Below are positions 31,298-42,374 of a DNA stretch of 64,000 nucleotides, piece by piece; position 1 is the first letter of the stretch; every line of letters starts with the position of its first letter. The DNA comes from Modestobacter versicolor (GTDB taxonomy: Bacteria; Actinomycetota; Actinomycetes; Mycobacteriales; Geodermatophilaceae). The stretch covers positions 1 to 64,000 of the forward strand of contig NZ_JACIBU010000001.1 of the NCBI RefSeq assembly GCF_014195485.1, read 5' to 3'. Below the pieces are notes generated by a model. That model did not search any database and was not told the DNA's origin. It saw nothing but the letters and a program-made list of their open reading frames with translations. Position numbers and translations under genes: made by a program.

Positions 31298-31936
31298 GTG
31301 ACGAACGCCGTGACCGCCGGCCGGCTGGCCGGGACCCCTGCCGCCCCGCCCACGCCGCAGGAGGCCCGGACGACGTGGCCCCGGATGGCGGTCCTCGGTG
31401 CGGCCCTGCTCGCGCTCGGTGTGCTGGCGCTGACCTGGACCGACGGCGGCCCGCGGGTGCTGCTCGGCGCCCTGGGGCTCTTCGCGGTCGTGCGCGGCGT
31501 GGCCGTGCTGCGCGGGGTGCGGGCCGGCCTGGTCGAGCGGGCCGGTGCGGTCACCGGTGCCGGTGCCGTCTGGGTCGGTCTGGTGGCCGTCGGGCTGGCG
31601 CTGCTGTCGCTGACCGCGGCCAGCTGGGTCCTCGTCGTCGCCGTGGTCCTGGTGCTGCCGGTGCTCGCCGCCGCGCTGCCCGACCACCGCGGTCCGCTGC
31701 TGGCCGGTGCCGCGGTCGTCGCGCTGGCCGCGGTCGGGGTCGGCGTCCTCGGCGGGGTGGACGAACTGCTCGGCGCCGGTCGCACCGCCGCTGCGGTGCT
31801 CGCCGGCCTGCTCGGGCTGGCCAACCTGGCCGGCGCCGCCGGCATGGCCCGGATCGCCCGCCGGCCGGAGCCGGCCCCGGCGGCCGGGTGCGGCGGCTGC
31901 GCCTGCGGCGCGGGGGGCTGCGGCTCGCTGCGCTGA
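31298..31936 (+). CDS. Membrane protein with Cys-rich C-terminal tail (HdeD/DUF308-like)
   Basis: A 212-residue protein with six predicted membrane helices in short hairpins (MAVLGAALLALGVLAL, VWVGLVAVGLALLSL, AAVLAGLLGLANLAG), a topology like the HdeD acid-resistance family; the match is only by pattern. The tail carries four cysteines in 13 residues (CGGCACGAGGC), a possible metal site. GTG 31298 is preferred because GACACT ends six bases upstream; ATG 31280 is an alternative. Function unknown. Confidence 0.7.
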   Translation: MTNAVTAGRLAGTPAAPPTPQEARTTWPRMAVLGAALLALGVLALTWTDGGPRVLLGALGLFAVVRGVAVLRGVRAGLVERAGAVTGAGAVWVGLVAVGLALLSLTAASWVLVVAVVLVLPVLAAALPDHRGPLLAGAAVVALAAVGVGVLGGVDELLGAGRTAAAVLAGLLGLANLAGAAGMARIARRPEPAPAAGCGGCACGAGGCGSLR

Positions 31937-32106: not shown

Positions 32107-32208
32107 ATGAGCACCATCGAGAAGACCGTGTGGACCTGCGACAACTGCAGGCACACGAACGCCGTCGAGCGGAAGCGCTGCACCGACTGCGGCACCACGC
32201 GACACTGA
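32107..32208 (+). CDS. 33-residue stand-alone RanBP2-type zinc finger protein
   Basis: A tiny gene, ATG 32107 to TGA 32208. The product has the exact spacing of the RanBP2/NZF zinc finger: W-x-C-x2-C-x3-N-x6-C-x2-C (WTCDNC, RHTN, then CTDC). Nothing else is present except short ends. In eukaryotes and in longer proteins this finger binds ubiquitin or single-stranded RNA; in a bacterium a protein or RNA ligand is inferred. GGAGG lies about 11 bases upstream. TAGCGT (32019-32024), inside an inverted repeat (ACCGAC, 5 bases, GTCGGT), is a possible promoter element. It is followed 105 bases later by the catalase-like/SIR2 pair. Confidence 0.75.
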   Translation: MSTIEKTVWTCDNCRHTNAVERKRCTDCGTTRH

Positions 32209-32313
32209 TCGACCGGCCCGCGACCGAGCGCAGCGGCGCGCCGGTCCGTGGGTGCCCGCACCGCCGGGCGACCCGATGGGTGACCTGAGCCCCGACGGGT
32301 AACGCCGCACCCC

Positions 32314-32988
32314 ATGGCAGACCTCGCGGACGCCGCCGGCCGGGCGGTCGCCGTCCCGCTCGCCGCGCTCACCCGGGTACGCCGGGCCAAGCCGATGCAC
32401 CCCCGCGGCGCGGTCTTCGGCGCCGTGCTCGAGCGGCACGGGCTCGGAGCCGGCCTCGGCTGGCTGGACGCCACCGGCACCGACGACGTGCTGGTCCGGC
32501 TCTCCCGCGGCGCCGGGCTGCCCGACCGCCTCCCCGACCTGCTGGGATTCGCGCTGCGGCTGCCCGGCGACCCCCCGGTCGACCTGCTGCTCTCCTCGTC
32601 CGGGCGCGGGCGGTGGACCCGCCGGGTGCCCGTCCTGCGCCGGGACGCCGCCACGCCCTACGGCTCGATCATGGCCTACCGCAGCGACGCCGGTCCGGTG
32701 TGGCTGGGCGCGGTGCCGCAGGGCGGTCCGCTGCCCTCGGACCGCGCCGGGCTGGCCGCCGAGGCGCCGGGCCGGGTGGTCCTGCTCTCCGCCGCCGTCG
32801 GCCGGGGCCCGTGGCAGCACGTCGGCACGCTCACCCTCGGCCCGCCGGCCGACCCGGTCGACCCGGACCTGCACTTCGACGCCGTGCTCCACGCCCCGCC
32901 CGGGCTGGTCACCGACGGGCCGATGGCGCGGTTCCGCCGGCCCGCCTACGCCGCGGCGCGCCGGGCCCGGGGGTCGGGAGAGCGGTGA
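32314..32988 (+). CDS. Compact catalase-like (heme?) protein
   Basis: A 224-residue protein that looks like a shortened catalase core. KPMHPRGAVF (26-35) resembles the distal-His strand of catalase (His29). LVRLSRGAGLPDRLPDLLGFALRLPG (60-85) matches the RFSTVAG...DVRGFAVKFY block. RFRRPAY (206-212) retains the Arg-x3-Tyr pattern of the proximal heme ligand (Arg208, Tyr212). It is under half the length of a true catalase and lacks most of the barrel insertions, so heme binding and peroxidase activity are inference. Its TGA overlaps the GTG of the SIR2 fusion gene (GTGA), making a two-gene translation unit. I am unsure whether close relatives have been assigned another function. Confidence 0.6.
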   Translation: MADLADAAGRAVAVPLAALTRVRRAKPMHPRGAVFGAVLERHGLGAGLGWLDATGTDDVLVRLSRGAGLPDRLPDLLGFALRLPGDPPVDLLLSSSGRGRWTRRVPVLRRDAATPYGSIMAYRSDAGPVWLGAVPQGGPLPSDRAGLAAEAPGRVVLLSAAVGRGPWQHVGTLTLGPPADPVDPDLHFDAVLHAPPGLVTDGPMARFRRPAYAAARRARGSGER

Positions 32989-34544
32989 ACGGGCACGTCT
33001 TCGTCGTCGGCGCCGACCTCACCCGGCTGTCCTGCGACGACGTCCTGGTCCCGACCGACCGGTCGCTGCGGGTCACCGCCAGCTGGGTGCCGCTGCTGCC
33101 GGCGGAGGCGCTGGAGAGCGCCGACGACGACGGCGCCTGCGTGGCCGGTGCGTGGGCCGAGGGCGAGCGGGTGCGCGAGGTGCCCGGTTGCGGGTCCCGG
33201 CGGGCGTGGCTGGTGGACACCGTCGACCCTGCGGGGCAGGCGGACGACGACCGCGCCCTGGACTGGCTGCTCGACGGTGCCCGGGCAGCGCTGGCCGCCG
33301 TCGCTGCCCGGGAGGTCGCCGAGCCCGCCCACGGCCGCGCCCGCCGGCTGGTCGGGCTGCCCGCGCTGGGCACCGGCTGGGGCGGCGCCGCGGGCCAGCG
33401 GGGTGCCCTCCTGCAGCAGCTGCTGCCGGTGCTCCGGGAGGCCGCCGAGCAGCACGGCTACGACATCGCGCTGGTGCTCCGCCAGCCCAGCGACCTGGCC
33501 GCCGCGCAGCGGGTGCGGCGCGGCGCGGGCGGTGGCTGGGCGCTGACCGACGCGCTGCGCACCGTCGCGGAGGACCTGGGGGACCGGGCCCGGGCCGGGG
33601 AGCTGGCGGTGTTCCTCGGCGCCGGGGTGAGCGCCGCCGCGGGGCTGCCCACCTGGGAGGAGCTGCTCGCCGAGCTGGCCGCCCGCGCGGGCCTGGACGA
33701 CGGGCTGCGGGCCGGGCTGTCCGGGCTCCCGCCGCAGGACGCCGCCGCGCTGCTCGCCCGGGCGCTCGGCCGCGACGAGCTCACCGCCTACGTGCAGGAA
33801 CGGTTCGGGCCCGGCCCGTACTCGCTGGCGCACGCTCTGGTGGCCGGGCTGCCGGTGCGCGAGTTTGTGACCACCAACTACGACCCGCTGGTCGAGCTGG
33901 CCGCCGCCGACATCGGCCGGCCGTTGCGGGTGCTGCCCTTCGACGAGGCCGCTCCCGGCGCGCCCTGGCTGCTCAAGCTGCACGGCGACGCCGCCCACCC
34001 GGACAGCGTCGTGCTCACCCGCGAGCAGTACCTGGAGTTCGGCGACCACCGAAGCGCGCTGGCCGGGGTGCTGCAGTCGCTGCTGCTCACCCGGCACGTG
34101 CTCTTCGTCGGCACCTCGATGCTCGACGACGACCTGATCCGGATCGCCCACCAGGTGCGCACCGTGCTGCACGTCCCCGACACCGCGCAGCCCCGGCGCA
34201 GCGGCACCGTGCTCGCGCTGCGCGAGGACCCGGTGCGGGCCCGGCTGTGGGAGCGCGACGTGGAGACGGTGGCGATGACCGGCGCCGACGAGCTCCCCGA
34301 CGTCCCGGCCGCGGAGGCTGCCCGGCGGCTGGAGGTGCTGCTGGACCTGGTCGGCTGCCTGTCCTCGCGGCCGACCGGCTACCTGCTCGACCCGGCGTAC
34401 CGCGGCCTGCTCGACGCGGAGGAGACGGCGCTGTCCGACGCCCTGGGCGACGTCGCCGCGGCGCTGGGCGCGGGCTCGCCGCAGAGCTGGGCCGCCCAGG
34501 AGGTGCTGCGGCTGCTGCGCGAGCTCGGCCACGCCCCGGGCTGA
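32985..34544 (+). CDS. Macro-like domain fused to SIR2-family NADase-type domain
   Basis: A 519-residue protein. Residues 1 to about 195 look macro-like: HVFVVGADLTRLSCDDVLVPTD at the start and RRLVGLPALGTGWGG (120-134) as the ADP-ribose loop. Residues 205-430 form a SIR2_2-type domain: GAGVS (212-216), TTNYD with Asn298, KLHGD with His333, and VGTSMLDDD (375-383). The Asn and His are the residues required for NAD cleavage in SIR2 anti-phage effectors such as ThsA. The Cys ligands of deacetylase sirtuins are absent, favouring NADase or ADP-ribose chemistry over deacetylation. It is coupled to a catalase-like gene upstream; a CYP152 follows after 50 bases. A stress or defence role is inference. 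Confidence 0.82.
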   Translation: MNGHVFVVGADLTRLSCDDVLVPTDRSLRVTASWVPLLPAEALESADDDGACVAGAWAEGERVREVPGCGSRRAWLVDTVDPAGQADDDRALDWLLDGARAALAAVAAREVAEPAHGRARRLVGLPALGTGWGGAAGQRGALLQQLLPVLREAAEQHGYDIALVLRQPSDLAAAQRVRRGAGGGWALTDALRTVAEDLGDRARAGELAVFLGAGVSAAAGLPTWEELLAELAARAGLDDGLRAGLSGLPPQDAAALLARALGRDELTAYVQERFGPGPYSLAHALVAGLPVREFVTTNYDPLVELAAADIGRPLRVLPFDEAAPGAPWLLKLHGDAAHPDSVVLTREQYLEFGDHRSALAGVLQSLLLTRHVLFVGTSMLDDDLIRIAHQVRTVLHVPDTAQPRRSGTVLALREDPVRARLWERDVETVAMTGADELPDVPAAEAARRLEVLLDLVGCLSSRPTGYLLDPAYRGLLDAEETALSDALGDVAAALGAGSPQSWAAQEVLRLLRELGHAPG

Positions 34545-34594: not shown

Positions 34595-35872
34595 ATGGTC
34601 CGCCGTCCCCGCCTCGACCAGTCGATCCCGATGCTCGCCCAGGGCTACGCCTGGCTGCCCGACCAGCGCCGCACGGCCGGCCGCGCCACGGTGCACACCC
34701 GGCTGATGCTGGCCCGGCAGACGCTGGGCGTCGAGGGCCCGGCCGGTGCGCGGTTCCTCTACGACGAGGACCACGTCCGGCGCAGCGGTGCGCTGCCCGA
34801 GCCCGTCGTCAGCACGCTGTTCGGCCATGGCGCGGTGCACACCCTGGACGGCGAGCCGCACCGGGTGCGCAAGGCGATGTTCGTGCAACTGCTGATGGGC
34901 GAGGGCATCGGCGACCTGGTCGACCGCGCGGAGGCGGCCTGGGACGACGCCGCCCGGCGCTGGGCCGGGGAGCGCCGGATCGTGCTGATGGACGAGGCCG
35001 CCCGGGTGCTCACCCGCGCGGTCTGCGACTGGGCGGCGGTCCCGGTGACCGACGAGGAGGTGCCGGCCCTCGCCCGCGACCTGACCGCCCTGGTCGACGG
35101 CTTCGCCACCGGTGCGCCGCGGCACTGGCGGGCGCGCCGGGTCCGGCAGCGGCGGGAGGCGTGGCTGGCCGGCATCGTCGAGGAGGTCCGGTCCGGTGCC
35201 CGCACGGTGCCGGCGGGCTCGGTGCTCGGCGTCGTGTCCGCCCACCGCGACTCCGAGGGCGAGCTGCTGGAGCCGCGGGTGGCCGCCGTCGAGGTGCTCA
35301 ACGTCGTCCGGCCGACCGTGGCGGTGTCCTGGTTCGTCGGCTTCGCCGCGCACGCCCTGCACCGCTGGCCCGAGCACCGCGAGCGGCTGCGCAGCGGCGA
35401 GCCGGCGTTCGCGGCGGCCTTCGCCCACGAGGTGCGCCGCTTCTACCCGTTCGCCCCGTTCATCGGCGGCCGCGCGCCCCGCGAGGTCCAGTGGGACGGC
35501 GAGATGGTGCCGGCCGGCTCGATGGTGCTGCTGGACCTGTTCGGGCAGAACCACGACCCGGACCTGTTCCCCGAGCCCTACGCGTTCCGCCCCGAGCGGT
35601 TCCTCACCGACGGCGGGTCGGCCGGTACCTCCGCCGTCCGGCAGATCGGGCCGTGGGAGCTGGTGCCGCAGGGCGCCGGCGACCCCCGCAGCGGCCACCG
35701 CTGCCCCGGGGAGGACGTCACCGTCGCGCTGCTGTCGGCGCTCGCCGTCCGGCTGGCGTGCCTGGGCTACACCGTCCCGGAGCAGGACCTGACGATCTCG
35801 TTGCGGCGCATCCCGGCCCGCCCGGCGAGCCGGGTGGTCCTCTCCGACGTCCGGCCGGACGGACAGCGGTGA
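34595..35872 (+). CDS. Cytochrome P450 of the CYP152 peroxygenase family
   Basis: A fatty-acid P450 driven by hydrogen peroxide rather than a reductase. The 425-residue protein has Cys370 in GHRCPGED as the heme ligand, preceded by the CYP152-typical QGAGDPRSGHR. Substrate-carboxylate Arg239 sits in VVRPTVAV. FGHGAVHTLDG supplies Phe76 and His82, spaced like Phe79/His85 of the decarboxylase OleT (the hydroxylase BSbeta has Gln at that place). It may therefore hydroxylate and/or decarboxylate fatty acids to terminal alkenes. ATG 34595 is used; no strong ribosome binding site. It lies 50 bases after the SIR2 gene. Confidence 0.93.
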   Translation: MVRRPRLDQSIPMLAQGYAWLPDQRRTAGRATVHTRLMLARQTLGVEGPAGARFLYDEDHVRRSGALPEPVVSTLFGHGAVHTLDGEPHRVRKAMFVQLLMGEGIGDLVDRAEAAWDDAARRWAGERRIVLMDEAARVLTRAVCDWAAVPVTDEEVPALARDLTALVDGFATGAPRHWRARRVRQRREAWLAGIVEEVRSGARTVPAGSVLGVVSAHRDSEGELLEPRVAAVEVLNVVRPTVAVSWFVGFAAHALHRWPEHRERLRSGEPAFAAAFAHEVRRFYPFAPFIGGRAPREVQWDGEMVPAGSMVLLDLFGQNHDPDLFPEPYAFRPERFLTDGGSAGTSAVRQIGPWELVPQGAGDPRSGHRCPGEDVTVALLSALAVRLACLGYTVPEQDLTISLRRIPARPASRVVLSDVRPDGQR

Positions 35873-39115: not shown

Positions 39116-39994
39116 GTGCCCGTCCGACCCCGCGTGCCTGAGGCACTGGCGAACACGGTGTTCCGGGGCTCGACCGTCGTCCGGCAGGGCCTGCTGACCC
39201 CGGACGAGCTGCGCGGGCCTGCCTGGACCGCTCTCTTCCGGGACGTCCACGTGTCCGCGGCCCACCCGATCACCCACGCCCTGCGCGCGCGGGCGGCTGC
39301 GGCGGTGCTGTACCCGGGGGCCGTGGTCACCGGGGCCAGCGCGGCGGTGCTCTGGGGCGTCGACCTCGCGGGGCCCGAGGACGACGTCGAGCTGACCCTC
39401 CCGCCCGGTGCCCACCCGGCGCGGATGCCGGGCGTGCGTGCTCGCCGCGCGCTCCTGGACGAGCGGCACGTGCGGGTCCACCGCGGTGTGCGGCTCACCG
39501 ACCCGGACACGACCGCGGTCGCCCTCGCCGGCAGCCTGGCCCTGGACGACGCCGTCGTCGCGGTCGACCAGCTGGTACACCTCGCCCGGGCGTCCCTGCC
39601 GCGGGTGCGCGCGCTGGCGGCAGCGGGCACCGGCCGCGGCTGCCGGCGGGCTCGGGCCGCGTGCGCGCTGGCCGACGGCAGGGCCGAGTCACCGCCGGAG
39701 ACGCGCATCCGGCTGCTCGTGCTGCGCCACGGCCTGCCGGCACCGATCGCCCAGTTCGAGGTGCCCCGGCCCGGCCGTCGTCCCCTGCGGCTGGACTTCG
39801 CCTGGCCGGAGCACCGGGTCGCGCTCGAGTACGACGGGCTCTGGCACGGCGAGCCGGGTCAGCTCGGCAAGGACCGGCAGCGGCTCAACGTCATCGGCGA
39901 CGCCGGCTGGCGGGTCGTGTTCGCCACCGCGGTCGACGTCCGTCGTCCGGCGGACCTGCTCGCCCGGCTGTCCCGGCTGCTGGTGCCGTGCTGA
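39116..39994 (+). CDS. AbiEi-like/DUF559 nuclease-fold protein
   Basis: A 292-residue protein of a family common in actinobacteria. The N-terminal part (FRGSTVVRQGLLTPDELR, VHVSAAHPITHALRARAAA, VVTGASAAVLWGVDL) resembles the AbiEi type IV antitoxin-like fold. The C-terminal 90 residues match the DUF559 restriction-endonuclease-like fold: Glu in AESPPETRIR, then LRLDFAWPEHRVALEYDG with the Asp and Glu-x-Asp expected for a PD-(D/E)xK centre, and KDRQRLN. No AbiEii toxin is present, so a toxin-antitoxin role is doubtful. CAGGCT ends six bases before GTG 39116. A dispersed hairpin starts at its stop codon. Confidence 0.75.
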   Translation: MPVRPRVPEALANTVFRGSTVVRQGLLTPDELRGPAWTALFRDVHVSAAHPITHALRARAAAAVLYPGAVVTGASAAVLWGVDLAGPEDDVELTLPPGAHPARMPGVRARRALLDERHVRVHRGVRLTDPDTTAVALAGSLALDDAVVAVDQLVHLARASLPRVRALAAAGTGRGCRRARAACALADGRAESPPETRIRLLVLRHGLPAPIAQFEVPRPGRRPLRLDFAWPEHRVALEYDGLWHGEPGQLGKDRQRLNVIGDAGWRVVFATAVDVRRPADLLARLSRLLVPC

Positions 39995-40064: not shown

Positions 40065-42374
40065 TCAGTCGGTGAGGCGGTGCAGCTCGGCCGGGAGCTC
40101 GCCGGGGTAGAGCACGGTGAGCCGCTGGGTCGGCCGGGTGAGCGCGACGTACAGGTCGCTGTGCCCGCGGACGCCCTCGTCGAGCACGCCCTGCGGGTCG
40201 AGCAGCAGCACCGAGTCGAACTCCAGGCCCTTGGCATCGGCGGGCACCAGCACCACCGGGCCGGCCGAGGAGTCGGCCGCCGGCCCGGAGGAGACCACCG
40301 GGAACGCCGTGGCCAGGCAGTCGACGACGTCGGCCACCCGGCTGGGCGGCACGATCACCGCCACGGTGCCCCCGGCCTCGACCAGCCCGGTGGTGACCGC
40401 GGCGACGCGGGGGAGCAGGTCGGCGTCGGGCACCTGCTCGGCCACCGGCGGCACCCCGGTGCTGCGCACCGAGCGCGGGGGAGCGGTCACCGCGTCGCCG
40501 GCCTCGAGCACGTCGGCGGCGACCGCCATGATCTCGGCCGGCGTCCGGTAGTTGACGGTCAGCTGGGCCAGCCGCCACTGGTCGCCGACGTGCGGGCGGA
40601 GCACCGCGCCCCAGTCGGTGGCGCCGGCCAGGCTGCCGGTCTGGGCCAGGTCGCCGACGACGGTCATCGACCGGGTGGGGCACTTGCGGGCCAGCAGCCG
40701 CCAGGTCATCGCCGACAGCTCCTGCGCCTCGTCCACGACCACGTGCCCGAACACCCACGTCCGGTCGGTGGCGGCCCGCTCGGCGGCGGACCGGACGTCG
40801 ACCTCGGCGTCCCGGTCGGCGAGGGAGTCGGCGTCCAGCAGGTCGCCGGCGGTGAGCTCCTCGCCCTCCTCGTCGTCCTCCAGGTCGGTGGAGCGCGAGC
40901 CGTGCAGCAGGTCGAGGGTCTCCTGCGCCTCGTCACGGGCCTGGCGGCGACGGCGCGCCTCGCGGGCCCGGTCGGCGCTGTCGTCGAAGCCGAGCAGCTC
41001 GTCGGCCTCCTCGAGCAGCGGGACGTCGGCCGGGGTCCAGGGCGCGTCGGCCGCGCGGGCGAGCAGCGCGCGCTCGTCGTCCTCCCAGCCCTTGGTCGCC
41101 CGCCGCACCCGGGCCGGGTCGGCGAACAGCTCGCGGAGCAGCTGCTCCGGGGTGAGCACCGGCCACATCTCGTCGACCAGCTCCCGGACGGCGGTCTCCT
41201 GGCCGATCTCCGAGCGCAGCGCCTCGAGGTCGCGCTGGTCGAGCAGGCTGGAGCCGCCGCGGACGTCGGCGCCGATCCGGTCGGCGTAGCGCTGCGCCAC
41301 CAGGTCGACGACGGCGCGGGCGAAGGCCGGCCGGCCGAGGTTGTGCAGCCGGGACGCCCGCCGGCCGACGGTGCGGCAGCGGGTGAGGTCGACCGGGCGG
41401 AGCGGGATGCGGACGCCGTCGATCACCAGCTCGCGGACGCCGCGGGGCACGGTCTCCCGGTCGCGGACGGCGGCCTTGAGCACGTCGACCATCGCCAGCC
41501 GGCCCTTGAGCTCGGCGACCTCGGGGGTCTCGTGCCCGCGGGCGTCCAGGCCCGGGCGCAGCTGGCCGAGCCCGGCGAGCAGCACCCCGGTCTCGCCGAG
41601 GGCGGGCAGCACGTCGGCGATGTAGCGCAGGAACGTCGGCGTCGGGCCGACGACGAGCAGGCCGCTGCGGGCCAGCCGGTCCCGGTGGGTGTAGAGCAGG
41701 TAGGCGGCGCGGTGAAGGGCGACCGCCGTCTTGCCGGTGCCCGGCCCGCCCTGGACGACCAGCACGCCGCGGGCGTCGCTGCGGATGATCGCGTCCTGCT
41801 CGGCCTGGATGGTGGCGACGATGTCGGTCATCCGGCCGGTGCGCTCGGCGGTCAGCGCCGCCATCAGCGCGGCCTCGCCGGTGAGCGGCGGCCCGTCGGT
41901 CGCCTCGACGTCGACGGTGAGCACCTCGTCGTTGACCGCGGTCACCGCGCGGCCGCGGGTGCGGATGTGCCGGCGGCGCACGACGCCCTCGGGCCGGAAC
42001 GGCGTCGCGGTGTAGAACGGCCGGGAGGCCGGCGCCCGCCAGTCGACCAGCGCCGGGTCGCCCGAGGGGTCGTCGGCGGCCAAGCCCACCCGGCCGATGT
42101 ACAGCGGCTGCGGGGAGGCCTCGCGGTCCAGCCGGCCGATCACCAGGCCGTGGTCGGCGGCGTCCAGGGTGGTGATCCGCTGGCCCTGGAACCGAGCGGC
42201 GGCCTCGCGCTCACCGAGGGACTGCGGGTTGATGATCGGGGTGGCCAGCGCCTGCCGGAAGCGGGTCACCGCCAGCTCGCGGGCGGCGTCCAGCCGGCGG
42301 TAGAGATCGGTGACGGCGGTCTGCTCCGCCGCCAGGTCCGGATCGGGGGCAACGGCGGGCGACGTGCTCGACAA
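40065..42374 (-). CDS. helR: HelR/HelD-type RNA polymerase-recycling ATPase (UvrD/Rep superfamily)
   Basis: In actinobacteria HelD/HelR proteins insert into RNA polymerase, release stalled polymerase from nucleic acid and, for HelR, displace rifamycins. The 769-residue protein has an N-terminal helical arm (EQTAVTDLYRRLDAARELAVT), Walker A GGPGTGKTA near residue 210, a long divergent insertion, Walker B-like VVVDEAQELS, VGDLAQTG, and the C-terminal helicase motif DLYVALTRP. This fits HelD-family rather than DNA helicases. TTG 42374 is chosen because AGGAG lies nine bases upstream; an in-frame TTG at 42383 directly abuts that site. I do not see a rifamycin-associated palindrome upstream, so rifamycin control is unproven. 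Confidence 0.85.
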   Translation of the reverse strand: MSSTSPAVAPDPDLAAEQTAVTDLYRRLDAARELAVTRFRQALATPIINPQSLGEREAAARFQGQRITTLDAADHGLVIGRLDREASPQPLYIGRVGLAADDPSGDPALVDWRAPASRPFYTATPFRPEGVVRRRHIRTRGRAVTAVNDEVLTVDVEATDGPPLTGEAALMAALTAERTGRMTDIVATIQAEQDAIIRSDARGVLVVQGGPGTGKTAVALHRAAYLLYTHRDRLARSGLLVVGPTPTFLRYIADVLPALGETGVLLAGLGQLRPGLDARGHETPEVAELKGRLAMVDVLKAAVRDRETVPRGVRELVIDGVRIPLRPVDLTRCRTVGRRASRLHNLGRPAFARAVVDLVAQRYADRIGADVRGGSSLLDQRDLEALRSEIGQETAVRELVDEMWPVLTPEQLLRELFADPARVRRATKGWEDDERALLARAADAPWTPADVPLLEEADELLGFDDSADRAREARRRRQARDEAQETLDLLHGSRSTDLEDDEEGEELTAGDLLDADSLADRDAEVDVRSAAERAATDRTWVFGHVVVDEAQELSAMTWRLLARKCPTRSMTVVGDLAQTGSLAGATDWGAVLRPHVGDQWRLAQLTVNYRTPAEIMAVAADVLEAGDAVTAPPRSVRSTGVPPVAEQVPDADLLPRVAAVTTGLVEAGGTVAVIVPPSRVADVVDCLATAFPVVSSGPAADSSAGPVVLVPADAKGLEFDSVLLLDPQGVLDEGVRGHSDLYVALTRPTQRLTVLYPGELPAELHRLTD

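Follow-up and report, generated by a model that had tools for sequence, protein, structure and literature searches.

What does a single protein that joins a macro-like domain to a SIR2 domain do, and which of its neighbours, if any, work with it? The question is raised by a locus in the window, that is, the whole stretch of 64,000 nucleotides of Modestobacter versicolor DNA analysed here, which belongs to a Geodermatophilaceae genome of 4.59 Mb. An earlier note had proposed a cassette in which a catalase-like protein, preceded by a zinc-finger microgene, would gate a macro-SIR2 fusion acting on NAD in stress or defence. Our main reading, held at about even odds (probability about 0.5), is that the 519-residue protein would be a self-contained, ligand-gated NAD+-consuming enzyme, whose divergent kin lie in ADP-ribosylglycohydrolase (ARG) islands and of which the window copy would be an orphan branch beside a CYP152-type P450 (Table 1).

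Table 1. Features of the macro-SIR2 locus, in positions of the window.
Feature	Position	Strand	Remarks
Putative membrane protein with Cys/Gly-rich tail, without Pfam family	31298..31936	+	
C4 zinc-finger microgene, 33 aa	32107..32208	+	RanBP2-type spacing
Catalase-like (minimal catalase-related) protein, 224 aa	32314..32988	+	Profile match 3e4w
Macro-SIR2_2 fusion, 519 aa, GTG start	32985..34544	+	Pfam SIR2_2, PADLOC ThsA
Macro-like domain of the fusion, residues 1-185	32985..33539	+	
SIR2 NADase-like domain of the fusion, residues 184-464, with Asn298 and His333	33534..34376	+	
CYP152-type P450 (H2O2-dependent fatty-acid peroxygenase)	34595..35872	+	Conserved downstream neighbour of the fusion; 6fyj match

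The microgene and the frames of 224 and 519 residues are all present as the earlier note had described them, and so is the GTGA overlap between the stop of the 224-residue frame and the start of the fusion. The fusion motifs were placed at residues 128-134 (LGTGWGG), 212-216 (GAGVS), 296-300 (TTNYD) and 331-335 (KLHGD). A mechanical ORF list gives the fusion a longer frame of 643 residues beginning at 32613; position 32985 is likely the true start, since most relatives share the same first residue (V/M-S/G-GHVFVVGADL). The putative membrane protein upstream ends in a Cys/Gly-rich stretch, CGGCACGAGGCG, and across the family the locus is marked by genes like it, which in many cases precede the fusion; their likeness was judged from position and tail, and two groups clustered apart. 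The GC content of the locus is ordinary, and Rfam revealed no match in the window.

The SIR2 half matched Pfam SIR2_2 (E 6.6e-27) and the PADLOC ThsA profile (2.9e-30). In the predicted model of the fusion (pLDDT 85.9, pTM 0.89) this half resembles ThsA-type structures in a Foldseek comparison, the structural alignment covering the 1000 best chains. The aligned fusion sequences, 41 in all, comprise the window protein and 40 of 47 listed relatives (near-duplicates and L018 were excluded, and the list excludes loci whose best frame covers fewer than 430 query residues), and every one of them has Asn298 and His333; the catalytic N and H motifs are also kept in all 17 representative copies used for the tree. 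The SIR2_2 profile and the Asn/His pair agree with the assignment of this domain to the anti-phage NADase kind. Known SIR2 NADase effectors are gated by SLOG, STAND, TPR or partner proteins. Pfam found no SLOG sensor C-terminal to the SIR2 domain, and the model places four helices in about 80 residues past residue 440. An extra C-terminal tail (DDR-x-Q-x-QR-x-G or close to it) was observed in the Blastococcus and Geodermatophilus fusions L050-L091 except L054, and the Modestobacter fusions are without it.

For the N-terminal half, fold prediction supports the macrodomain that had been supposed from its glycine loop. Its profile showed colinear similarity to a canonical macro profile (built from 28 of 30 loci) across 156 columns with P 8.4e-5, against best values of 0.075 for 20 control clusters, 0.25 for ten column shuffles and 0.79 for the reversed profile. 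The similarity reached P 1.1e-4 with the distant members only and P 0.024 with the window-type rows alone, and the macro HMM run against single fusion members gave E 0.048 at best. Neither the window fusion nor the 40 other aligned members reached the Pfam Macro gathering score, and the window genome contains no Pfam Macro match; a search of 23 genomes of the genus gave no such match either, while several sister genera have them. The ADP-ribose loops of binding macrodomains are NAAN and GGGV. Both were seen in the 28 canonical macrodomain sequences, and by alignment they are lost in the fusion, with PTD or PTG in their place; the GTG-x-GG loop and Asp11 are kept, and the glycine loop is invariant. 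As judged from the alignment, the N-terminal macrodomain is a degenerate one. In the structural comparison the OSH55 designed hydrolases, which we take to be built on a macro scaffold, score like macrodomains against this half.

The 224-residue protein has no Pfam match. A profile of 24 sequences, made from the window protein and 23 of 25 other distinct sequences (L042 and L043, misread or partial, were left out), matched 3e4w with E 4.2e-7, and true catalases followed with 0.025 and worse. The catalase-related peroxidase 3e4w, presumably MAP-2744c of M. avium paratuberculosis, shares with the window protein a distal His and an Arg-x3-Tyr close to the C-terminus, although it is 320 residues long against 224. 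Residues R62, S64, R208 and Y212 are invariant in the aligned sequences and H29 is kept in more than 90%, the candidate heme residues of the catalase superfamily being distal His29 and proximal Arg208-x3-Tyr212. At the level of sequence, the catalase-like character proposed for the small protein is borne out by the 3e4w match and by the His and Arg-x3-Tyr residues.

Its proposed role as a dedicated gate of the fusion is unsupported. Of the 11 carriers in the genus, nine have the catalase-like gene just ahead of the fusion, and the tight coupling of the two genes holds within the genus of the window: eight of the nine adjacent pairs overlap by four bases, the ninth (G004) having a 9-base gap, and in some pairs the overlapping start was chosen among several in-frame GTG codons. 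In the same-genus carrier G012 the contig breaks by the fusion and no catalase-like gene was seen. The pair is weakened further by G022, where the fusion is on one contig and the catalase-like gene on another, directly before a hydrolase gene; the latter order is also found in G019. In the same-genus genomes G014, G016 and G021 the fusion is absent and the P450 immediately follows the catalase-like gene; G001, G009, G017 and G018 have neither catalase-like gene nor fusion. Outside the genus the gene adjoins the fusion in 0 of 53 carriers, 47 of which have one elsewhere. The catalase-fusion pair is genus-local, and a general partnership of the two proteins was rejected.

The microgene fits the spacing of the RanBP2-type consensus, W-x-C-x2-C-x3-N-x6-C-x2-C, with a Pfam Zn_ribbon_RanBP match (E 0.02) below the cut-off of that family. 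A DNA scan found it in the locus region of 15 of 16 same-genus genomes, four of them without catalase-like gene and fusion; because it persists where both are absent, we rejected it as a part of the SIR2 cassette. G030 also has it close to its catalase-like gene. In another genus a zinc microgene of the same kind is located close upstream of a catalase-like gene (L119, 9632-9739, minus strand), a hint that the pairing of these two is older.

The fusion itself is widely spread. Orthologues of the window type, with at least 62% identity, were found in 64 of 112 family genomes, a few as fragments only, a recurrence that puts the fusion far beyond chance. In three Blastococcus-type genomes (G463, G492 and G502) it is split into two out-of-frame pieces, through decay or sequencing error. 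Considering the ordinary GC content and the single clade formed by the window-type copies, the sequences speak for vertical inheritance of the window copy in Geodermatophilaceae. The CYP152 protein matched 6fyj across residues 3-420 (E 7.3e-91), a full-length match to CYP152 peroxygenases, and scored 410.7 bits against NCBIfam CypC, below the equivalog cut-off of 600. On the same strand, it lies downstream of the fusion within 2 kb in 61 of the 64 carriers and within 700 bases in 60; in G023 the distance is 1.9 kb, with other called frames between. These counts rest on the places of the matches; gene calls came from a codon-usage script with wrong-strand calls in some loci (e.g. L049, L078, L163, L167, L168 and L170), whose fine orders were not used. 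Since the genes past the P450 differ between genera, the fusion-P450 neighbourhood has outlasted rearrangement. It is still the inheritance of one family.

Could this neighbourhood be the function? The fusion and the P450, joined in the genus by the catalase-like protein, might form a peroxide-linked redox device that adjusts NAD or signals lipid-peroxide stress. The P450 keeps its place behind the fusion in 61 of 64 carriers despite the genus-varying genes beyond, it occurs in 19 of 48 fusion-less genomes (Fisher 4.7e-11, kinship ignored), and the 4-base catalase-fusion overlap points the same way. However, within a single family shared descent may explain the association, 19 genomes keep the P450 in the absence of the fusion, the carriers G462 and G531 have no CYP152 orthologue, and neither CYP152 nor catalase-like gene was found in any of the 16 divergent-copy loci searched. 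We regard the device as unlikely. The gene order might have no function at all, the locus being an inherited set of unrelated genes and the fusion now of minor role. The absence of the fusion from 12 of the 23 genomes in the genus (three of them at most 80% complete) and the out-of-frame pieces, possibly sequencing error, would fit such an account; the invariant catalytic residues and a fusion-P450 order kept while the flanks changed make it a poor candidate. An ADP-ribosylation cycle within one chain, in which the macro half would undo a modification that the SIR2 half places on itself or on a target, as in SirTM/Zn-Macro, has in its favour that macro-sirtuin pairs and fusions exist with a link to oxidative stress (PMC11490716) and that two peroxide-type heme enzymes adjoin the window fusion. 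Yet SirTM has Gln for the key His (PMC11490716), whereas His333 is invariant in the fusions, the matches of the SIR2 half are to SIR2_2 and ThsA-type structures, and in the alignment the macro half is without NAAN and GGGV loops, so we consider the cycle quite improbable.

The macro half might also read an ADP-ribose signal made by an unlinked TIR protein, as a variant of Thoeris. A macro domain is the sensor in TM-macro Thoeris effectors, according to PMC11204291, and a search of the window genome found one TIR_2 match (PF13676; G000:C1:1642942-1643322, in a 358-aa frame). This variant is very unlikely, as genomes with the window-type fusion have ThsB_TIR about as often (11 of 64) as those without it (7 of 48; p 0.80). 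With no TIR co-occurrence in the 112 genomes and the sole TIR match of the genome 1.6 Mb away, membership in Thoeris was rejected.

Another setting was found for the divergent relatives. Seven family genomes contain copies with 41-43% identity to the window protein, counted as matches at E 1e-20 or better (weaker SIR2-only matches, e.g. in G003, G030 and G033, are outside this count). Each of the seven has an ARPP-1 gene at a distance of 2.7-4.7 kb, although ARPP-1 is present in only 19 of the 112 genomes (hypergeometric 1.4e-6, kinship ignored). The surroundings further include a Nudix gene with or without NrtR winged helix (7/7), an ARG-dual-specificity phosphatase fusion (6/7, with a short ARG-like piece in its place in L161), a NERD-UvrD nuclease-helicase (5/7) and an HD_4 protein (3/7), and a REase-ARP-type protein was found in the islands L120 and L162. 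Island genes were named by Pfam for some loci and by BLAST to those proteins for the remainder. In G147, which belongs to another family, the fusion is accompanied by ARG-phosphatase, ARPP-1 at 1.5 kb, NrtR-like and NERD-helicase genes; in G447 it is accompanied by ARG-phosphatase, NrtR and NERD-helicase genes without an ARPP-1 match, and one stop codon lies inside the fusion match. The ARG islands bearing a macro-SIR2 gene are L120 (in G026), L121, L122 and L157-L162.

For four of the 13 divergent copies from actinobacteria (that of G353 and three from a single genus) no island gene was found nearby, and none was found within the short flanking DNA (about 7 kb) of the acidobacterial, myxococcal and unclassified-bin copies. 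In the tree the window-type copies form one clade (100/100) near the island copies of the family, several branches are long, and two separate origins of the island association are needed. Macro-SIR2 is missing from the island in 12 of the 19 ARPP-1 family genomes. In a phylum sample with three candidates scored per genome, at least 7 of 396 genomes had the fusion, and it was found in 1 of the 38 with ARPP-1 above cut-off. Absent from these 12 and not found in most ARPP-1 genomes of the phylum sample, macro-SIR2 is thus an optional module of the islands.

For the window copy, a defence-island setting is not evident. PADLOC on ten flanking genes detected no clear defence gene and weak generic matches only, Pfam found no ARG, phosphatase, ARPP-1, Nudix or WYL regulator in the six genes beside the fusion, and ARPP-1 is absent from the window genome. 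A gene at 39158-39994, without Pfam family, had a weak AbiEi-type match in PADLOC (20.9 bits), and the gene at 40065 had weak UvrD-helicase matches. Relatives of the fusion were found neither in IMG/VR with the patterns used nor in phages, and the 59 plasmids that match it all do so over less than 80% of the protein; these searches gave no sign of viral or plasmid origin.

The reading of the fusion as a ligand-gated NAD+-consuming enzyme is based on the predicted fold of each half, the invariant SIR2 Asn/His and the macro glycine loop. The degenerate macrodomain, as its fold suggests, would bind a small molecule of the ADP-ribose type, or else an ADP-ribosylated target. The bound ligand would control the SIR2 domain, probably via changed oligomerisation as in ThsA, and the SIR2 domain, by analogy with ThsA, DSR2 and KomC, would hydrolyse NAD+ so that the cell is slowed or killed. 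The island copies, whose defence role is inferred from the islands, could be triggered by ADP-ribose set free from molecules that a virus has modified. For the genus of the window, where most carriers have a translationally coupled catalase-like gene in front, the trigger may be linked to peroxide stress; this is a weak step. Against the whole reading speak the macro half lacking NAAN and GGGV and scoring below the Pfam cut-off (macro HMM E 0.048 at best for single members, profile P 0.024 for window-type rows), the window genome without ARPP-1 and the window copy in no evident defence island, and the loose island link (fusion in 1 of 38 phylum ARPP-1 genomes, absent from 12 of 19 family islands, 4 of 13 actinobacterial copies outside islands). 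More tentatively, we might speculate that a macro-gated SIR2 NADase serves as an optional suicide module of ARG islands, in which the macro half reads ADP-ribose liberated by the glycohydrolase of the island and triggers NAD+ destruction when repair fails, and that the orphan copy was domesticated beside peroxide enzymes in Geodermatophilaceae. With a macrodomain gate in its own chain, a SIR2 killer domain would be wired in a new way. The link to the islands carries more weight than the new gate: a killer-type sirtuin turns up repeatedly in some ARG islands, so that a model of repair alone becomes a repair-or-die model that can be tested, and this recurrence is more interesting biology than the catalase pair.

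In the open-access literature we found no described system with the catalase-like and fusion pair, as the earlier note had supposed, and no description of a macro-SIR2 NADase fusion; fusions of another class, SirTM/Zn-Macro, are known (PMC11490716). That paper describes macro-sirtuin pairs and fusions tied to oxidative stress, which is a likeness to our locus, but they belong to the SirTM class with its His-to-Gln replacement, a zinc macrodomain and a GcvH-L/LplA operon, whereas the window fusion is SIR2_2 with His333 kept in 41 of 41 sequences. Type I Thoeris ThsA (SIR2-SLOG) carries its SLOG sensor after the SIR2 domain; the window fusion has the macrodomain before it, a helical tail and no linked TIR gene. 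TM-macro ThsA likewise has a macrodomain in the effector, a sensor answering an ADP-ribose-type signal according to PMC11204291, but its effector part is a transmembrane domain, where the window fusion has SIR2 and no TIR partner. The ARG-centric host systems were predicted in 2022 to act against viral ADP-ribosylation and were selected from neighbourhoods in which ARTs and sirtuins are not coupled; section 3.8 of PMC9503650 names Macro, NADAR, REases, helicases and ARPP as accessory parts and includes no sirtuin. As in those systems, the divergent copies are located among ARG-phosphatase, ARPP-1, NrtR/Nudix, HD, NERD-helicase and REase-ARP genes. The differences are that macro-SIR2 is coupled here and that the window copy stands outside any such island.
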